Shown here: in pieces, positions 1 to 5,537 of the stretch
Numbering within the stretch: the first letter of the stretch is position 1
Layout of the letters: each line of letters starts with the position of its first letter
NCBI GenBank assembly: GCA_027483745.1
Contig: JAIXTZ010000042.1
Location: 1-5,537, forward strand
From: Lysobacteraceae bacterium
GTDB taxonomy: Bacteria; Pseudomonadota; Gammaproteobacteria; Xanthomonadales; Xanthomonadaceae
DNA: 5,537 bases
Reading direction: 5' to 3'
Program-made: the position numbers and the translations under genes
The notes under the pieces: generated by a model
Database searches by the model: none
The model's input: only the letters and a program-made list of their open reading frames with translations
Told to the model about the DNA's origin: nothing

Positions 1-1
1 C

Positions 2-3000
2 GCGCCGGGCCAGCGCGAGGCCGACCGCACGCACCTGCTGGCGGCGCTCGCGCAGCTCGACCGCGCGCCGATCGGCACCTTGCACGGCCTCTGCCACCGC
101 ATCCTCTCGGCGCATCCGCTGGAGAGCCGGCAGGGCTTCCAGCCACTGGCGCTCGGCGATGGGCGAGGCGTCCTCGAGGCGATGGCCCGCGACCTGCTGC
201 GCCGCATCGGTGCGGGCGAGCCGCCGCAGCCGGCGCGAACGCTGCCGAAGGGCTGCAGCACCCTCGACGGGCTGACGAAAGCCATTGCCGCGCTGCTGCA
301 GCCCGGCGTGGTGGTGACGCCAGCGCCGACGCACGAGGCCCTGAGAGCACTGATCTCTCCCGCCATCGAAACCACGCTGCGCGCGCTGACGGTCAAGGCA
401 GGCCACTTCAAGGACGCACGATCGGCGCAGCACAAAGCCGCGATCGCGCTGTGCGCTTTCCTGGATGCCGGCGGCGAACCGCCTGCCAATGCGTCGGCCC
501 TCCTCGCCAAGGAAGACTTCGGTGCCTGGGTGCTCCCTGCGGCGGAGAGCTTGCTGCGCGACGCCCAGTTTCAATGCGGCATGGCATCCCTTGTCACCGC
601 GATCGAGCAGGCCACCAGCCCCGAGCGCGCGTTCTGGGCGTGGTGGTGGCCGGAGCTGCGCGCGATGCAGAAGGCCCGCAGCCTTGAGATCGGCGAGATG
701 GGCTTCGACCGCCTGATCGAGCAGGTCAGCGGCGCGATGCGCGAGGACGATTCGCCGCTGCCCGACGCGGTGTTCGCCCGCTGGCCCATCGCGCTGGTGG
801 ACGAATTCCAGGACACCGACGGCGCGCAGTACGCCCTGCTCGACCGCCTCTACCGCGATAGCACTGGCGCGAAGCGCGGCCTGCTGGCGATGGTGGGCGA
901 CCCGAAGCAGGCCATCTACAGCTTCCGCGGCGGCGACATCGCGGCCTATCTCGCGGCCTGTCGTGATGCCGATGCCACGCTGACGCTCGACACCAACCAG
1001 CGTTCGTCCACGACCTACGTCACCGCCTGCAACACGCTGTTCGACGGCGCACGCGCGCACCTCGGCACCGGCGCGACGCCGATCACCTACGCGCCGGTGC
1101 GCGCCGCCGGCCGCGCCGACGCGAGGCCGCTGCTTGAGAACGGCCAGCCGATCGCGGCGCCGCTGGTGTTCCACCGTCTTGATCTCGCCCTGCCCAACAG
1201 CGTGATGCGCCCGAAGGCGATCGACGCCTGCGCCGCCCTCGTGGTCGATCTGCTCGCCTCCGGCCGCCATCGCCTGGGCGACCGTCCGCTGCAGCCGGGC
1301 GACCTCGCCGTGCTGCTGGTGTCGAACGCCGAGGTCTCGGCCCTGCGCCGCGCGCTGCAGCGCCACGGCGTGCCCTGCGCGGGCCAAGGCCGGCAGACGG
1401 TGTTCGATTCCGAGTGGGCGCGTGATCTGCTGCTGGCCCTGTACGCGGTGCGCCACCCCGGCGACGCCGGCGCCCTGCGTGCCGCCCTGCTTACGCCGCT
1501 GTTCGGCCTGACGCCGCCAGCGCTGCCCGCACTCGAAGCGAACGGCGGGCTCGACGCCTGGCGCGAGCGCTTCATCGCGCTTCGGCAGCGCTGGTCGCGC
1601 GCCGGGGTGCTGGCCGTGGTGCAGGCGCTGATCGAACTCGCCTTGCCCGTGCTGGCAAACCGCGACGAGAAGGACGGCGAGCGCGCCCTCACCGACCTTC
1701 GCCATCTGGGCGAACTGCTGCAGCAGGAAGCGGAAGCCGGCCATTCGCCGGATGCGCTGCTGGATTGGATGCGCGCGCAGCGCGAAGACGAAGAAGACGT
1801 CGCCGGCGGCGAACGCAGCCTGCGCCTCGAATCCGACGCGAAGCGCGTGCGCCTGATGACCCTGCACGCCAGCAAGGGCCTCGAATTCCCGGTGGTGCTG
1901 CTGCCCACGCTGTGGGCGCATGAGCATCGCCCGCCGAAGGGGCCGGCCATCGCCTCGCAGGACGCCGACGGCCGCCGCGCTGCGGTGTTCGAAGCCTCGG
2001 CGCTCCGCGACGCGAAAGAGGCGCAGCAGGACGAACGCTTCCGCCTGCTGTACGTGGCGCTTACCCGCGCCGAGCACGCCTGCCACGTGTTCACGCTGCC
2101 GCCGGAGCGTCCGGCGAAGCGCGGCGGCAAGGGCGCCAAAGCCGACCCCGACCGCTCCGCGCTCGACGCGCTGCTGTCGCGTTGGCCCGACAGCGAGCGC
2201 GAGGGCCCCGGCATCGCGTGGCGTCCGCATTGGCCGCTGCCGCCCGACTCGCCTTACGTCGCCGGCGAAGCTGTCGGCACGCCGGCCGAATCGACGCCGG
2301 CCGCACCCGCGGGCTTCGCGCTGCCCGGCCGCTACAGCTTCTCCAACCTGAGCGGGCACGGTGAACGGCGCCACGTCGAAGCGAGCGCCGCGGACGACGA
2401 GCGCAGCGCCGTGCCTGAGACCGACGCGACGCACGACACCACGCCCGCGCCGGCACCCGCCTTCGACGAGGATGCCCTCGCGACCTGGCAGGCCCTCGCG
2501 ACCGTGCGCGGTACCGGCTTCGGCCAAGCCGTGCACGACCTGTTCGAAGCGCGAGAGCCCAGCCAGGCCTTCGCCGCCGACCTCGCCGGCGTGCAGCGCG
2601 CCTTGGAGCAGCACGCGGTGCGCACCTCCGACGGCAGCCCGCTCAGCACGGCGGTGCCGCGCGTCGCCGCCATGCTCGACCGCTGCCTCGCGGTACTGCT
2701 GCCCACCGACAGTGCCGTGCCCTGCACGCTCGGCGGGCTCGCGCCCGGGCAGCAGGCCCTCGAGCTCGCCTTCCAGTTCCACATCGACCAGGCCTCGATG
2801 GCGGACCTGCGTCGCCTCGCCGCCGCGCACGGCGAACCGGCGCTGATTCCCGAAGGCCCGATCGATCGGCTGCGCGGCGCGATGGTCGGCGCCATCGACC
2901 TCGTGTTCGAACACGACGGCCGCTTCCACGTGCTCGACTACAAGACCAACGCGTTGCCCACGCTCGCCGACTACACGTCGAGCGCCCTCGTGGCCGCGAT

Positions 3001-3229
3001 GGACGCGCACCACTACCGCTTCCAGGCCTTCCTCTACACGCTCGCCGTGCACCGCCACCTGCGCCAGCGCCTTCGCGACCGCTACGCCTACGCCACCCAC
3101 ATCGGGCCGGCGATCTACCTGTTCGTACGCGCCGCGGGCCTCGCACCCGGGCTCGGCCTGTGGTCGCAACGGTTCCCGGAGGCGCTGGTGCTCGGCGCCG
3201 ACCGCCTCTTCGCCGGAGCGTCGGCATGA
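2..3229 (+). CDS. recB: RecBCD enzyme subunit RecB (exodeoxyribonuclease V beta), 5'-truncated by the window edge
   Basis: RecB is the 3'-5' helicase and only nuclease of RecBCD, which processes double-strand DNA ends in the cytoplasm. The reading frame is open from base 2, giving 1075 visible residues. E. coli RecB has about 1180, so roughly the first 100-plus residues, including Walker A, are missing. The first residues (IGTLHGLCHRIL) match the conserved STIHGFC region of UvrD-like helicases. Motifs follow in order: Walker B LVDEFQDTD (791-820), motif III VGDPKQAIYSFRGGD (about 890-940), motif IV LDTNQRSS (986-1009), motif V LMTLHASKGLEFPVV (about 1844-1906) and motif VI LLYVALTRAEHA (2042-2089). 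A proline/acid-rich linker (about 2384-2473) leads to the nuclease domain. There the catalytic set is intact: His (2534-2536) in GQAVHDLFE, Asp (2897-2899) in GAIDLVFE, Asp and Lys in LDYKTN (2936-2944), and the QxxxY helix (Gln 3023, Tyr 3035). The 13-residue spacing between the two Asp equals that of E. coli D1067/D1080. The end overlaps recD by four bases. The identification is very secure. Confidence 0.97.
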   Translation, partial: APGQREADRTHLLAALAQLDRAPIGTLHGLCHRILSAHPLESRQGFQPLALGDGRGVLEAMARDLLRRIGAGEPPQPARTLPKGCSTLDGLTKAIAALLQPGVVVTPAPTHEALRALISPAIETTLRALTVKAGHFKDARSAQHKAAIALCAFLDAGGEPPANASALLAKEDFGAWVLPAAESLLRDAQFQCGMASLVTAIEQATSPERAFWAWWWPELRAMQKARSLEIGEMGFDRLIEQVSGAMREDDSPLPDAVFARWPIALVDEFQDTDGAQYALLDRLYRDSTGAKRGLLAMVGDPKQAIYSFRGGDIAAYLAACRDADATLTLDTNQRSSTTYVTACNTLFDGARAHLGTGATPITYAPVRAAGRADARPLLENGQPIAAPLVFHRLDLALPNSVMRPKAIDACAALVVDLLASGRHRLGDRPLQPGDLAVLLVSNAEVSALRRALQRHGVPCAGQGRQTVFDSEWARDLLLALYAVRHPGDAGALRAALLTPLFGLTPPALPALEANGGLDAWRERFIALRQRWSRAGVLAVVQALIELALPVLANRDEKDGERALTDLRHLGELLQQEAEAGHSPDALLDWMRAQREDEEDVAGGERSLRLESDAKRVRLMTLHASKGLEFPVVLLPTLWAHEHRPPKGPAIASQDADGRRAAVFEASALRDAKEAQQDERFRLLYVALTRAEHACHVFTLPPERPAKRGGKGAKADPDRSALDALLSRWPDSEREGPGIAWRPHWPLPPDSPYVAGEAVGTPAESTPAAPAGFALPGRYSFSNLSGHGERRHVEASAADDERSAVPETDATHDTTPAPAPAFDEDALATWQALATVRGTGFGQAVHDLFEAREPSQAFAADLAGVQRALEQHAVRTSDGSPLSTAVPRVAAMLDRCLAVLLPTDSAVPCTLGGLAPGQQALELAFQFHIDQASMADLRRLAAAHGEPALIPEGPIDRLRGAMVGAIDLVFEHDGRFHVLDYKTNALPTLADYTSSALVAAMDAHHYRFQAFLYTLAVHRHLRQRLRDRYAYATHIGPAIYLFVRAAGLAPGLGLWSQRFPEALVLGADRLFAGASA
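3215..3218 (+). promoter_or_regulatory. Ribosome binding site (GGAG) for recD
   Basis: GGAG lies seven bases before the ATG at 3226, inside the last codons of recB. This Shine-Dalgarno match supports 3226 as the start over the upstream in-frame GTG at 3160, which lies deep in recB. It also supports it over the ATG at 3250, which lies eight codons further in. With the ATGA stop/start overlap it suggests translational coupling of recD to recB. Confidence 0.75.
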
Positions 3230-5373
3230 CGACGCAGCCGCATCCGCTGATGGCCCGCTCCGCCACCGGCCTGCCCGAGCACTGGCGGCCGATCGACCGC
3301 CTGCTGCACCGCTGGGTGCTGAGCCACGGTGGCACGGAAGACCTCGCGCGCCTCGGCGGCGCATTGAGTGCGGCGACCGGCGAAGGCCACAGCGCGCTCG
3401 CCGTCGAGGATGCGCTGCGCCTGGGCGCACCGACGCTGGATCACGACGCCCTCGACGCCTTGGGCGGTGCGTGGTTGGGCCCGCCCGAGGCCGACACACC
3501 CTTCGTTCGCGACGGCAACGCCCGCGTCTACCTGCGCCGCTATTGGCAGGCGGAAACCACCATCGCTGCGGCCGTCGCCGACGCCGTGCAGGCGACGCTG
3601 CCCGCGCTCGCCACCGCGATCGACGAGGCCGCGTTGGACGCGCTGTTCGGCGGCCCGGCGACGCCCGAGACCATGCCGCAGCGCGAGGCGGTGCGGCGCT
3701 GCCTCGGCACGCGGCTGTTCGTGCTCACCGGCGGGCCCGGCACCGGCAAGACCACCACCGTGCGGCGAATGCTGATGGCGCGGCAGCGGTTGCAGGACAC
3801 GCCGCTCGCCGTGCGCGTGGCCGCGCCCACCGGCAAGGCGGCGCAGCGTCTGGCGGAATCCTTGCGCGAGGGCGAGGGCCTGCCGGTGGCGCCGGTGGCG
3901 CTCACCGTGCATCGCCTGCTCGACTACCAGCCGCACGCGCAGGCCTTCGGCCGCCATCGCGGGCGGCCGATCGAGGCCGATCTCGTGGTCGTCGACGAAG
4001 CCTCGATGCTCGATCTCGAAACCCTGCACGCCCTGCTCGATGCCCTGCCGCCGCACGCGGCGCTGTGGCTGGTGGGCGATGCCGACCAGCTCAGCCCCGT
4101 GGGTCCGGGCTCGGCGCTGCAGGACCTCGTGCAAGCCTTCGAGGCGCGCGACGCCTCGCCGCTCGTGCGGCTGCGCCACAGCTTCCGTGCCGAAGCGGCG
4201 CTCGCGGCGGTCAACGCAGCGCTGCGCGAAGGCGACGGCGGCGCGCTCGGCGAAGCCATCGATCGCAGCGAGGGCGCGGTGCGCGTGCTCGACACCACCA
4301 CGCCCGCGGCGGTGCAGGGCGCCCTGCGCGACTGGGCCGAGGCCCTGCTTGCCGATGGCGCCATGCCGCTGCTGCCGGCCGATCCCGCGCAGGCGGCCAC
4401 GCTCGCCGCAGCGGCCCTGCGCGGCCTGAAAGCGCGGCAGTGGCTGTGCGCCGTGCGCGACGGTGCCTTCGGCAGCGTCGAAGCCAACCAGCGCCTCGAT
4501 GCCGCACTGCGTCGCCACGCGGGCGCGAACGCGCAAGGCGAGTGGTATGCCGGCCGCCGCGTGCTCATCACCCGCAACGACACGGACACCGGCCTCTTCA
4601 ATGGCGACGTCGGCCTCTGCCTTGCCGACGCCGATGGGCGACTGCGCGTCTGGTTCGAACGCATCGACGAAGGCGGCATCGCGCCGGCGCGCGCCCTGCC
4701 GATCGGCGCCCTGCCCGCCTTCGATCTCGGCTTCGCGCTCACCGTGCACAAGAGCCAGGGCTCGGAGTACGCCGAGGTGGCCGTACTGCTGCCGCCGGAC
4801 CCGCAGCACCGCGTGCTCTCGCGCGAGCTGCTCTACACCGCCGCCTCGCGCGCCAAGCGCACGCTCACCCTGCACACCGACGACGCGGTGATCGACGCCT
4901 GCCTCGACCGCCCGGTGCGTCGTGTCGGCGGCCTCCACGTGCGGCTGGCGGAAACGCTCACCGTCGCGCGGCCCCTGATCCGCACCGTCGCCGCCGTCAT
5001 CAGTGATGACGCCGGCCGCGTGCTGCTGGTGCGCAAGCAGGGCTCCTCCACCTTCATCCAGCCCGGTGGCAAGCGCGAAGCCGGCGAAGCGGCACTCACC
5101 ACCCTCGCGCGCGAGCTGCAGGAGGAACTCGGCGTCACGCTGGTCGAAGGCAGTGCCGTGCGCCTTGGCGAATTCGAAGCCGCCGCCGTGAACGAGCCCG
5201 GCCGTCGCGTGCGCGGCGAGGCCTACGCCGTGCGCATCGATGGCATTCCCCTCGCTTCGGCCGAGATCGCCGAGCTGGCGTGGGTCGCGCCGCAGGCCCC
5301 CTTCCCCGTGCCGGTGGCGCCGCTGAGTGCGGAGCACATCCTCCCGGCGTGGCGGGCTTGGCGGAACGCCTGA
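3226..5373 (+). CDS. recD: RecD helicase (exodeoxyribonuclease V alpha) fused to a C-terminal Nudix hydrolase domain
   Basis: The product is 715 residues, against about 608 for E. coli RecD. Residues 1-577 or so are a full RecD, the fast 5'-3' SF1B helicase of RecBCD. The N-terminal domain has the family patterns GEGHSAL (residues 52-58) and VYLRRYWQAE (101-110). The helicase core shows Walker A GGPGTGKTTT (169-178), Walker B VVVDEASMLD (254-263), motif III LVGDADQLSPV (282-292), LRHSFR (316-321), motif V LTVHKSQGSEY (505-515) and motif VI LLYTAASRAKRTL (535-547). RRVGGLHVRLAE (565-576) corresponds to the normal RecD terminus (RRSGL... in E. coli). The frame then continues without a stop into a complete Nudix domain (about 583-715). 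The start is fixed by the GGAG and the ATGA overlap with recB. RecD identity is near certain. The fusion is read directly from one uninterrupted frame; whether it stays fused in the cell and what its substrate is are unknown. Confidence 0.96.
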   Translation: MTTQPHPLMARSATGLPEHWRPIDRLLHRWVLSHGGTEDLARLGGALSAATGEGHSALAVEDALRLGAPTLDHDALDALGGAWLGPPEADTPFVRDGNARVYLRRYWQAETTIAAAVADAVQATLPALATAIDEAALDALFGGPATPETMPQREAVRRCLGTRLFVLTGGPGTGKTTTVRRMLMARQRLQDTPLAVRVAAPTGKAAQRLAESLREGEGLPVAPVALTVHRLLDYQPHAQAFGRHRGRPIEADLVVVDEASMLDLETLHALLDALPPHAALWLVGDADQLSPVGPGSALQDLVQAFEARDASPLVRLRHSFRAEAALAAVNAALREGDGGALGEAIDRSEGAVRVLDTTTPAAVQGALRDWAEALLADGAMPLLPADPAQAATLAAAALRGLKARQWLCAVRDGAFGSVEANQRLDAALRRHAGANAQGEWYAGRRVLITRNDTDTGLFNGDVGLCLADADGRLRVWFERIDEGGIAPARALPIGALPAFDLGFALTVHKSQGSEYAEVAVLLPPDPQHRVLSRELLYTAASRAKRTLTLHTDDAVIDACLDRPVRRVGGLHVRLAETLTVARPLIRTVAAVISDDAGRVLLVRKQGSSTFIQPGGKREAGEAALTTLARELQEELGVTLVEGSAVRLGEFEAAAVNEPGRRVRGEAYAVRIDGIPLASAEIAELAWVAPQAPFPVPVAPLSAEHILPAWRAWRNA
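4972..5370 (+). other. Nudix hydrolase domain fused to the RecD C-terminus
   Basis: This is a domain of the recD product, residues about 583-715. It opens with a typical Nudix first strand (RTVAAVISDDAGRVLLVRK, residues 586-604). The Nudix box spans residues 615-637 (bases 5068-5136) and fits GX5EX7REUXEEXGU exactly: GKREAGE, seven residues, then RELQEELGV. The metal-binding glutamates E630, E633 and E634 are present, so the domain should be catalytically competent. After the box come AAAVNEPGRRVRGEAYAV (653-670) and EIAELAWV (680-687), both usual in small stand-alone Nudix proteins of about 130-140 residues. Family members cleave nucleoside diphosphates linked to another moiety, but the fold does not reveal the substrate. 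Oxidised dNTPs, other nucleotides or a nucleotide cofactor are all possible. Catalytic competence is inferred from the motif only. Confidence 0.93.
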
Positions 5374-5398
5374 CGCCGCGCCCGCGGTGTGTCACATT

Positions 5399-5418
5399 GC
5401 GCCGTCCCCGCACGGCGC
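5399..5418 (+). terminator. Short GC-rich hairpin after recD, possible weak terminator or leader structure
   Basis: A perfect 7-base inverted repeat (GCGCCGT / ACGGCGC, 5399-5405 and 5412-5418) encloses a 6-base loop, 26 bases after the recD stop. No T-run follows, so a classical intrinsic terminator is not shown. In such GC-rich DNA a stem of this size can also arise by chance. It lies 13 bases upstream of the next start codon, so it could equally be a structure in that gene's leader. Confidence 0.3.
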
Positions 5419-5431
5419 CCTCCGTCCCCGC
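5402..5431 (+). repeat. 10-base direct repeat CCGTCCCCGC, two copies 20 bases apart
   Basis: CCGTCCCCGC occurs at 5402-5411 and again at 5422-5431. The first copy overlaps the hairpin and the second ends directly at the GTG start of the downstream frame. The copies could be paired protein-binding half-sites or simply the remnant of a small duplication. No regulator recognising this sequence is known to me. Confidence 0.4.
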
Positions 5432-5537
5432 GTGAGCACGTTCCGCCTTCCCCGCCAGCGCGATGCCCTCAGCGGCTTTGCCGATGACTTCGCCGCATGG
5501 TGCGAGGCCGCGGACGTGCCGCCGGCGGTGGCCACGC
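5432..5537 (+). CDS. Start of a possible RsbW-like anti-sigma/GHKL ATPase (3'-truncated by the window edge)
   Basis: A frame opens at GTG 5432 and stays open to the window end, giving 35 residues. They begin MSTFRLPRQRDALSGF and end EAADVPPAVAT. A short beta strand, then a helix starting after a few polar residues, then a V-P-x-x-V-A turn into a second helix is the usual beginning of small serine-kinase anti-sigma factors of the HATPase_c_2/RsbW type. In those proteins the next residues would be the LALDELLTNA-like N-box, which lies beyond the window. No Shine-Dalgarno motif precedes the GTG. An in-frame GTG at 5387 would add 15 residues crossing the hairpin, which look non-coding. The gene lies 58 bases after recD in the same direction and is probably functionally unrelated. 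The reading frame is likely real; the family assignment is tentative. Confidence 0.5.
   Translation, partial: MSTFRLPRQRDALSGFADDFAAWCEAADVPPAVAT

Follow-up and report, generated by a model that had tools for sequence, protein, structure and literature searches.

A RecD helicase fused in frame to a Nudix domain in a Lysobacteraceae bacterium

RecD, the alpha subunit of RecBCD (exodeoxyribonuclease V, TIGR01447), is a low-copy 5′–3′ motor of that complex. In a 5,537-nt stretch of DNA from a Lysobacteraceae bacterium (assembly GCA_027483745.1, contig JAIXTZ010000042.1, positions 1–5,537; hereafter the window), recD reads without interruption into a Nudix domain, as an original prediction made from the sequence had pointed out. 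According to earlier reports, the RecD subunit is largely flexible in one class of RecBCD–DNA structures (PMC13101046), archaeal nudix genes adjoin a transcription factor gene and are not fused to it (PMC2643942), and nucleotide-pool sanitation prevents the insertion of oxidised nucleotides, with maladaptive repair being triggered without MutT (PMC9500592), the background to the predicted role of the fused Nudix domain in cleaning the local nucleotide pool. Literature searches on RecD/RecBCD, Nudix/MutT, helicase and DnaQ fusions and Silanimonas recD listed no RecD–Nudix fusion among the papers searched, in line with the prediction, which took this architecture to be apparently undescribed.

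RecD and Nudix modules in one reading frame

Bases 3226–5373 of the forward strand encode a single protein of 715 residues plus stop that contains a complete RecD and, directly after it, an equally complete Nudix domain, confirming that both modules lie intact in one uninterrupted frame. The RecD moiety (3226–4947, residues 1–574, up to ...GGLHVRL) is joined through the linker AETLTVARPLIRT (4948–4986) to the Nudix domain (4987–5373, residues 588–715 plus stop), whose Nudix box GKREAGEAALTTLARELQEELGV (5068–5136, residues 615–637) matches the pattern Gx5Ex7REUxEExGU exactly.

The helicase part belongs to RecD of RecBCD, passing the TIGR01447 cutoff (360.7 vs 310.15 bits) and missing that of RecD2, an SF1B helicase (TIGR01448, 250 vs 500 bits). 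A structure model matches solved RecD up to E. coli residue 606 and then solved Nudix enzymes, with the RecD fold covering the whole RecD chain. The window protein was not listed for the RecD N-terminal domain PF21185 at E ≤ 0.001, though its N-terminal part aligns with solved RecD, and a fused relative (P0005) matches this family (28.2 vs 22 bits). The protein resembles RecD in being a full-length helicase with the RecD motifs and fold and an overlap between recB and recD, but differs in that its RecD part is followed at once by a Nudix domain of 128 residues.

The Nudix domain scores above the gathering threshold of PF00293 and has the Nudix fold. It shares fold and box with MutT-like enzymes and with E. 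coli ORF135 (2rrk, CTP pyrophosphohydrolase), presumably NudG, which are among its best PDB sequence and fold neighbours, but it does not come near the curated cutoffs of two specific families, the MutT 8-oxo-dGTP diphosphatase (TIGR00586, 28.6 bits for the whole protein and 32.0 for the domain vs 97.9) and the pyrimidine (deoxy)nucleoside triphosphate diphosphatase (NF007834, 38.2 and 42.6 bits vs 156). These scores give no support to the domain being the MutT of its genome. In the closest genome, a MutT-ThiE-type protein (316.7 bits vs a cutoff of 245) is encoded at another place, so the fused Nudix need not be what cleans the nucleotide pool in general.

An antiporter gene between recD and nudix in unfused relatives

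The closest genomes to the window are Silanimonas, and two of their loci could be read across the whole region. Identity to the window in RecD and Nudix is 96% and 95%, respectively, for L003, from a metagenome-assembled genome, and 88% and 89% for L001. Both carry the order recB–recD–ybaL (opposite strand)–nudix–MCP–rsbW, compared with recB–recD–nudix–rsbW in the window, MCP denoting a methyl-accepting chemotaxis protein that is here a PAS-type receptor. The gene between recD and nudix (6765–8489 in L003, 6762–8486 in L001), convergent with recD, has as its product a Na/H exchanger, 575 residues long in L003, that includes a TrkA_N domain and that we take to be an antiporter of the YbaL/Kef type. 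In both loci recD and nudix share a common frame in which the sole in-frame stop is recD's own (1197 codons in L003, 1196 in L001), so that a deletion that takes out the intervening gene and is divisible by three in length can result in a fusion. A sequencing slip that removed a stop is unlikely, as the window differs from L003 by a whole gene and not by a point change. Short tandem repeats of the GGAATCGC kind occur directly past the recD stop at a contig end in a further locus (L002, 4479–4576).

The separate Nudix gene that follows ybaL in Silanimonas (the L003 copy, and the standalone protein P0011) is orthologous by tree to the window Nudix, 95–96% identical, and has the same active site, but it is a gene with its own start codon (P0011 has 144 amino acids) and is not tied to RecD.

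Between L001 and L003, synonymous divergence (dS) is 0.464 at the ybaL end next to recD, compared with 0.43 for recD, 0.44 for nudix, 0.44 for MCP and 0.38 for recB. As this end is as diverged as its neighbours, ybaL was probably at the site in the common ancestor of the two loci, and the fusions in the window and in the fused cluster P0001, described below, would therefore be derived. Over the other four fifths of ybaL, dS is 0.07–0.22, with 0.07–0.09 in the two fifths at the 5′ end. These lower values look like the result of gene conversion at a later time, and the gradient as a whole suggests either conversion or transfer of the gene. The open reading frames around recD and nudix in five further genomes (G005–G009) gave no decision on the polarity.

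Both domains show low ratios of nonsynonymous to synonymous divergence (dN/dS) between the window and L003, 0.225 for nudix (7 nonsynonymous and 11 synonymous changes) and 0.148 for recD (27 and 64), in a pairwise comparison with small counts that may include time before the fusion. With L001 as outgroup, nonsynonymous and synonymous codon changes number 1 and 3 in nudix and 7 and 17 in recD on the window branch, and 2 and 5 in nudix and 4 and 29 in recD on the L003 branch, indicating that the window branch is not clearly relaxed, the counts being too small to say more.

At the 5′ edge of the window, the truncated recB (2–3229, forward strand; 482 bits to TIGR00609, against a cutoff of 696 for the whole protein) lies directly upstream of recD, its stop overlapping the recD start codon in GCATGACG (ATGA). 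At the other edge, the start of a gene of the HATPase_c_2 family (5432–5537, forward strand), cut by the window end and presumably RsbW-like, is 100% identical over 36 residues to its L003 orthologue, which matches PF13581.

Distribution and phylogeny of RecD–Nudix fusions

A search scored on the Nudix domain, covering proteins of about 393–1251 amino acids (0.55–1.75 times the query) whose Nudix domains share words with that of the window, and thus restricted in a way that would miss RecD joined to another kind of Nudix, returned 10 proteins: five full-length RecD–Nudix clusters of 716–734 amino acids (P0001–P0005), one RecD–Nudix fragment (P0007), one Nudix–methyltransferase and three exonuclease–Nudix proteins. 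By eye, the Nudix box is retained in all seven fused sequences seen (the window, P0001–P0005 and P0007). The Nudix of P0007, from a 2900-base contig, runs out of register past ...FAVRITG, probably through a frameshift or the contig end. In the methyltransferase protein (P0006), a related Nudix domain (66% identity) stands N-terminal to its partner. The exonuclease proteins P0008–P0010, which are DNA polymerase III epsilon-like, resemble the window protein in being DNA-processing enzymes that end in a related Nudix (45–48% identity), but their partner is an exonuclease and not a helicase; P0008, named Pseudolysinimonas by its source, has PF00929, P0009 has PF00929 and passes the PRK07942 cutoff, and P0010 falls under that cutoff. 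They are possibly another fusion of a related Nudix to a repair enzyme.

A search with the RecD part found 5716 proteins, the best 120 of which include 6 fused ones. Among these 120, the 18 rows at 95–97% RecD identity comprise 16 unfused full-length proteins, each of 591 amino acids and terminating in SVPG or SVPS, and two partial ones; in L003, a recD tail of this type overlaps the stop of the convergent gene. The unfused P0154–P0156 (74–82% RecD identity) have tails of other kinds. Standalone proteins related to the fused Nudix are numerous, with 849 matching at E ≤ 1e-10. No match spanning both domains was seen among the matches listed for 198 genomes sampled from a larger set of the family (190 with a match), or in any of eight genus genomes, which are drafts, the G003 contig ending ~100 bases past recD. 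The recD of another of these genomes, G008 (locus L018), has one in-frame TGA inside the match.

The original prediction had proposed a phylogeny to see whether the fusion forms a conserved clade, and the trees speak against one. The RecD tree comprised 55 rows, 6 of them fused, drawn from the listed rows up to P0180 and from full-length proteins (the partial P0147, P0148 and P0007 standing outside the RecD trees). The fused rows are scattered, requiring 5 changes of state, at least 4 of which are forced by well-supported branches: the window lies within a 17-row clade whose other members are all unfused (support 99/98), P0001 clades with L001 and P0151 (97/95), P0003 and P0005 stand apart, and P0002 and P0004 are sisters (100/98), 87.3% identical in RecD and 88.4% in Nudix. 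An approximately unbiased (AU) test was run on 23 of the 55 rows, those other than P0137–P0142 and P0144–P0146 (near-copies of the window clade) and P0158–P0180. Forcing the five closest fused rows, a group chosen after the first RecD tree had been seen, into one clade cost 225 log units and was rejected (p = 1e-166), and joining P0001 with P0003 alone cost 31 log units (p = 0.0018). Two RecD trees and the AU test thus all reject a conserved fused clade, and the Nudix tree also needs 5 changes.

This Nudix tree, of 51 rows (42 of the 120 listed standalone proteins, seven fused, L001 and L003), places the window with L003 and P0011 (100/92) and P0001 with L001 (100/92); because of these pairings, the fused Nudix in the window and in P0001 is the local orthologue and not an import. 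The original prediction had also named, as a result that would count against it, a fusion confined to one assembly with a stop between the domains in relatives. In the nearest relatives the domains are indeed separated by a stop, and the two loci that could be read have an entire gene there, but the fusion recurs in other lineages.

Origin of the fusion and its implications

Taking these observations together, we think it probable that the window encodes a genuine RecD–Nudix fusion of a Silanimonas-like bacterium, one of several formed separately by loss of ybaL, with a working Nudix passenger on RecD. The convergent antiporter gene between recD and the orthologous nudix would have been lost repeatedly, the same loss removing the ybaL–nudix intergenic region, the presumed site of the nudix promoter. 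The nudix coding sequence in the window, which has no evident start of its own, would then survive as the 3′ end of the recD gene, sharing its transcription and translation, and with the recD start coupled to recB, Nudix would be made only at the level of RecD. Since nudix would depend on recD after such a loss, lineages keeping both activities would be those with in-frame joints. The product would be an ordinary RecBCD subunit with a predicted active Nudix hydrolase on its C-terminus. The low dN/dS of both parts, together with the P0002/P0004 pair, which appears to have carried one fusion through ~12% divergence, leads us to regard the RecD and Nudix parts of the protein as both working.

Several observations weigh against this account of repeated loss. 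For about 19 nt of the window linker, neither flank of the L003 locus offers a good match, so the junction does not look like the scar of a clean deletion. Compared with L003, the window is missing the MCP gene as well (window 5357–5369 against L003 8975–11036), a difference that may be independent of the fusion because the standalone P0011 has a window-like nudix C-terminus. Separate fusions may be fewer than the RecD tree suggests, because the Nudix domains of P0002, P0003 and P0004 form a weakly supported group (85/66), which could reflect one older fusion for all three, and because the linkers of P0001 and P0003 look alike. Around the other fused clusters, loss of ybaL is inferred from protein sequence only. 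The gene also behaves like an acquired one, and the direction of change could be reversed in part, given its 98.4% identity between L001 and L003 (87.8% for the neighbouring MCP) and its patchy presence: no match at E ≤ 1e-60 in five of the eight draft genus genomes, and a best match in G003 (75%) located elsewhere. The reverse order of events, in which the recD–nudix adjacency or fusion is older and ybaL was inserted between the two and spread by homologous recombination, splitting the protein, would accommodate this patchiness, the homogenised four fifths of ybaL, the similar linkers of proteins whose RecDs are not sisters and the P0002–P0004 grouping. We nevertheless hold it to be improbable, since dS in the part of ybaL adjoining recD is as high as in the neighbouring genes, even P0157 (60% identity) shows, as read from its protein, a recD tail of the ybaL type, and the two genus genomes with a clear separate nudix (G005, G008) carry it off the recD contig. 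An assembly or sequencing artefact that dropped both the stop and ybaL would explain why the closest relatives of the window are unfused and why its 715-residue protein is absent from the 10 proteins of the Nudix search and from the best 120 of 5716 RecD matches; it is highly improbable, a one-off error being unlikely in view of six other fused clusters (five full-length, one fragment), whose linkers differ and of which P0001 has 25 member sequences and P0002 lies on two contigs, and in view of the ~19 nt of the junction that are found in neither flank.

Selection of the fusion for a job specific to RecBCD, with the tethered Nudix acting at the DNA end, either by hydrolysing damaged or regulatory nucleotides or by responding to them and so tuning RecD, seems unlikely to us. 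The four or more state changes on the tree, the apparent retention of the fusion in P0002/P0004, the conservation of both active sites and the existence of exonuclease-fused Nudix relatives would all fit it; yet sister lineages live without the fusion, standalone Nudix copies have the same conserved active site, the closest genome has its MutT-ThiE-type protein elsewhere, and recurrence is also expected because adjacency, a common frame and high G+C content (73% in the window) already make such fusions easy to form. A more specific version, a convergently selected RecBCD variant whose Nudix destroys or senses a particular nucleotide (a damaged dNTP or a signalling dinucleotide) at processed ends and thereby couples the state of the pool to repair, as Nudix domains fused to DnaQ-type proteins may do, is to our mind rather doubtful.

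The RecD of a well-studied repair machine thus bears a catalytic domain that the searched literature does not describe for RecD. In a GC-rich genome, neighbouring genes can become fusion proteins once a convergent gene between them is lost, which calls for caution in inferring function from fusion alone. At the same time, fused lineages standing beside unfused sisters offer a natural comparison for the effect of the Nudix tether on recombination, mutation and phage resistance.

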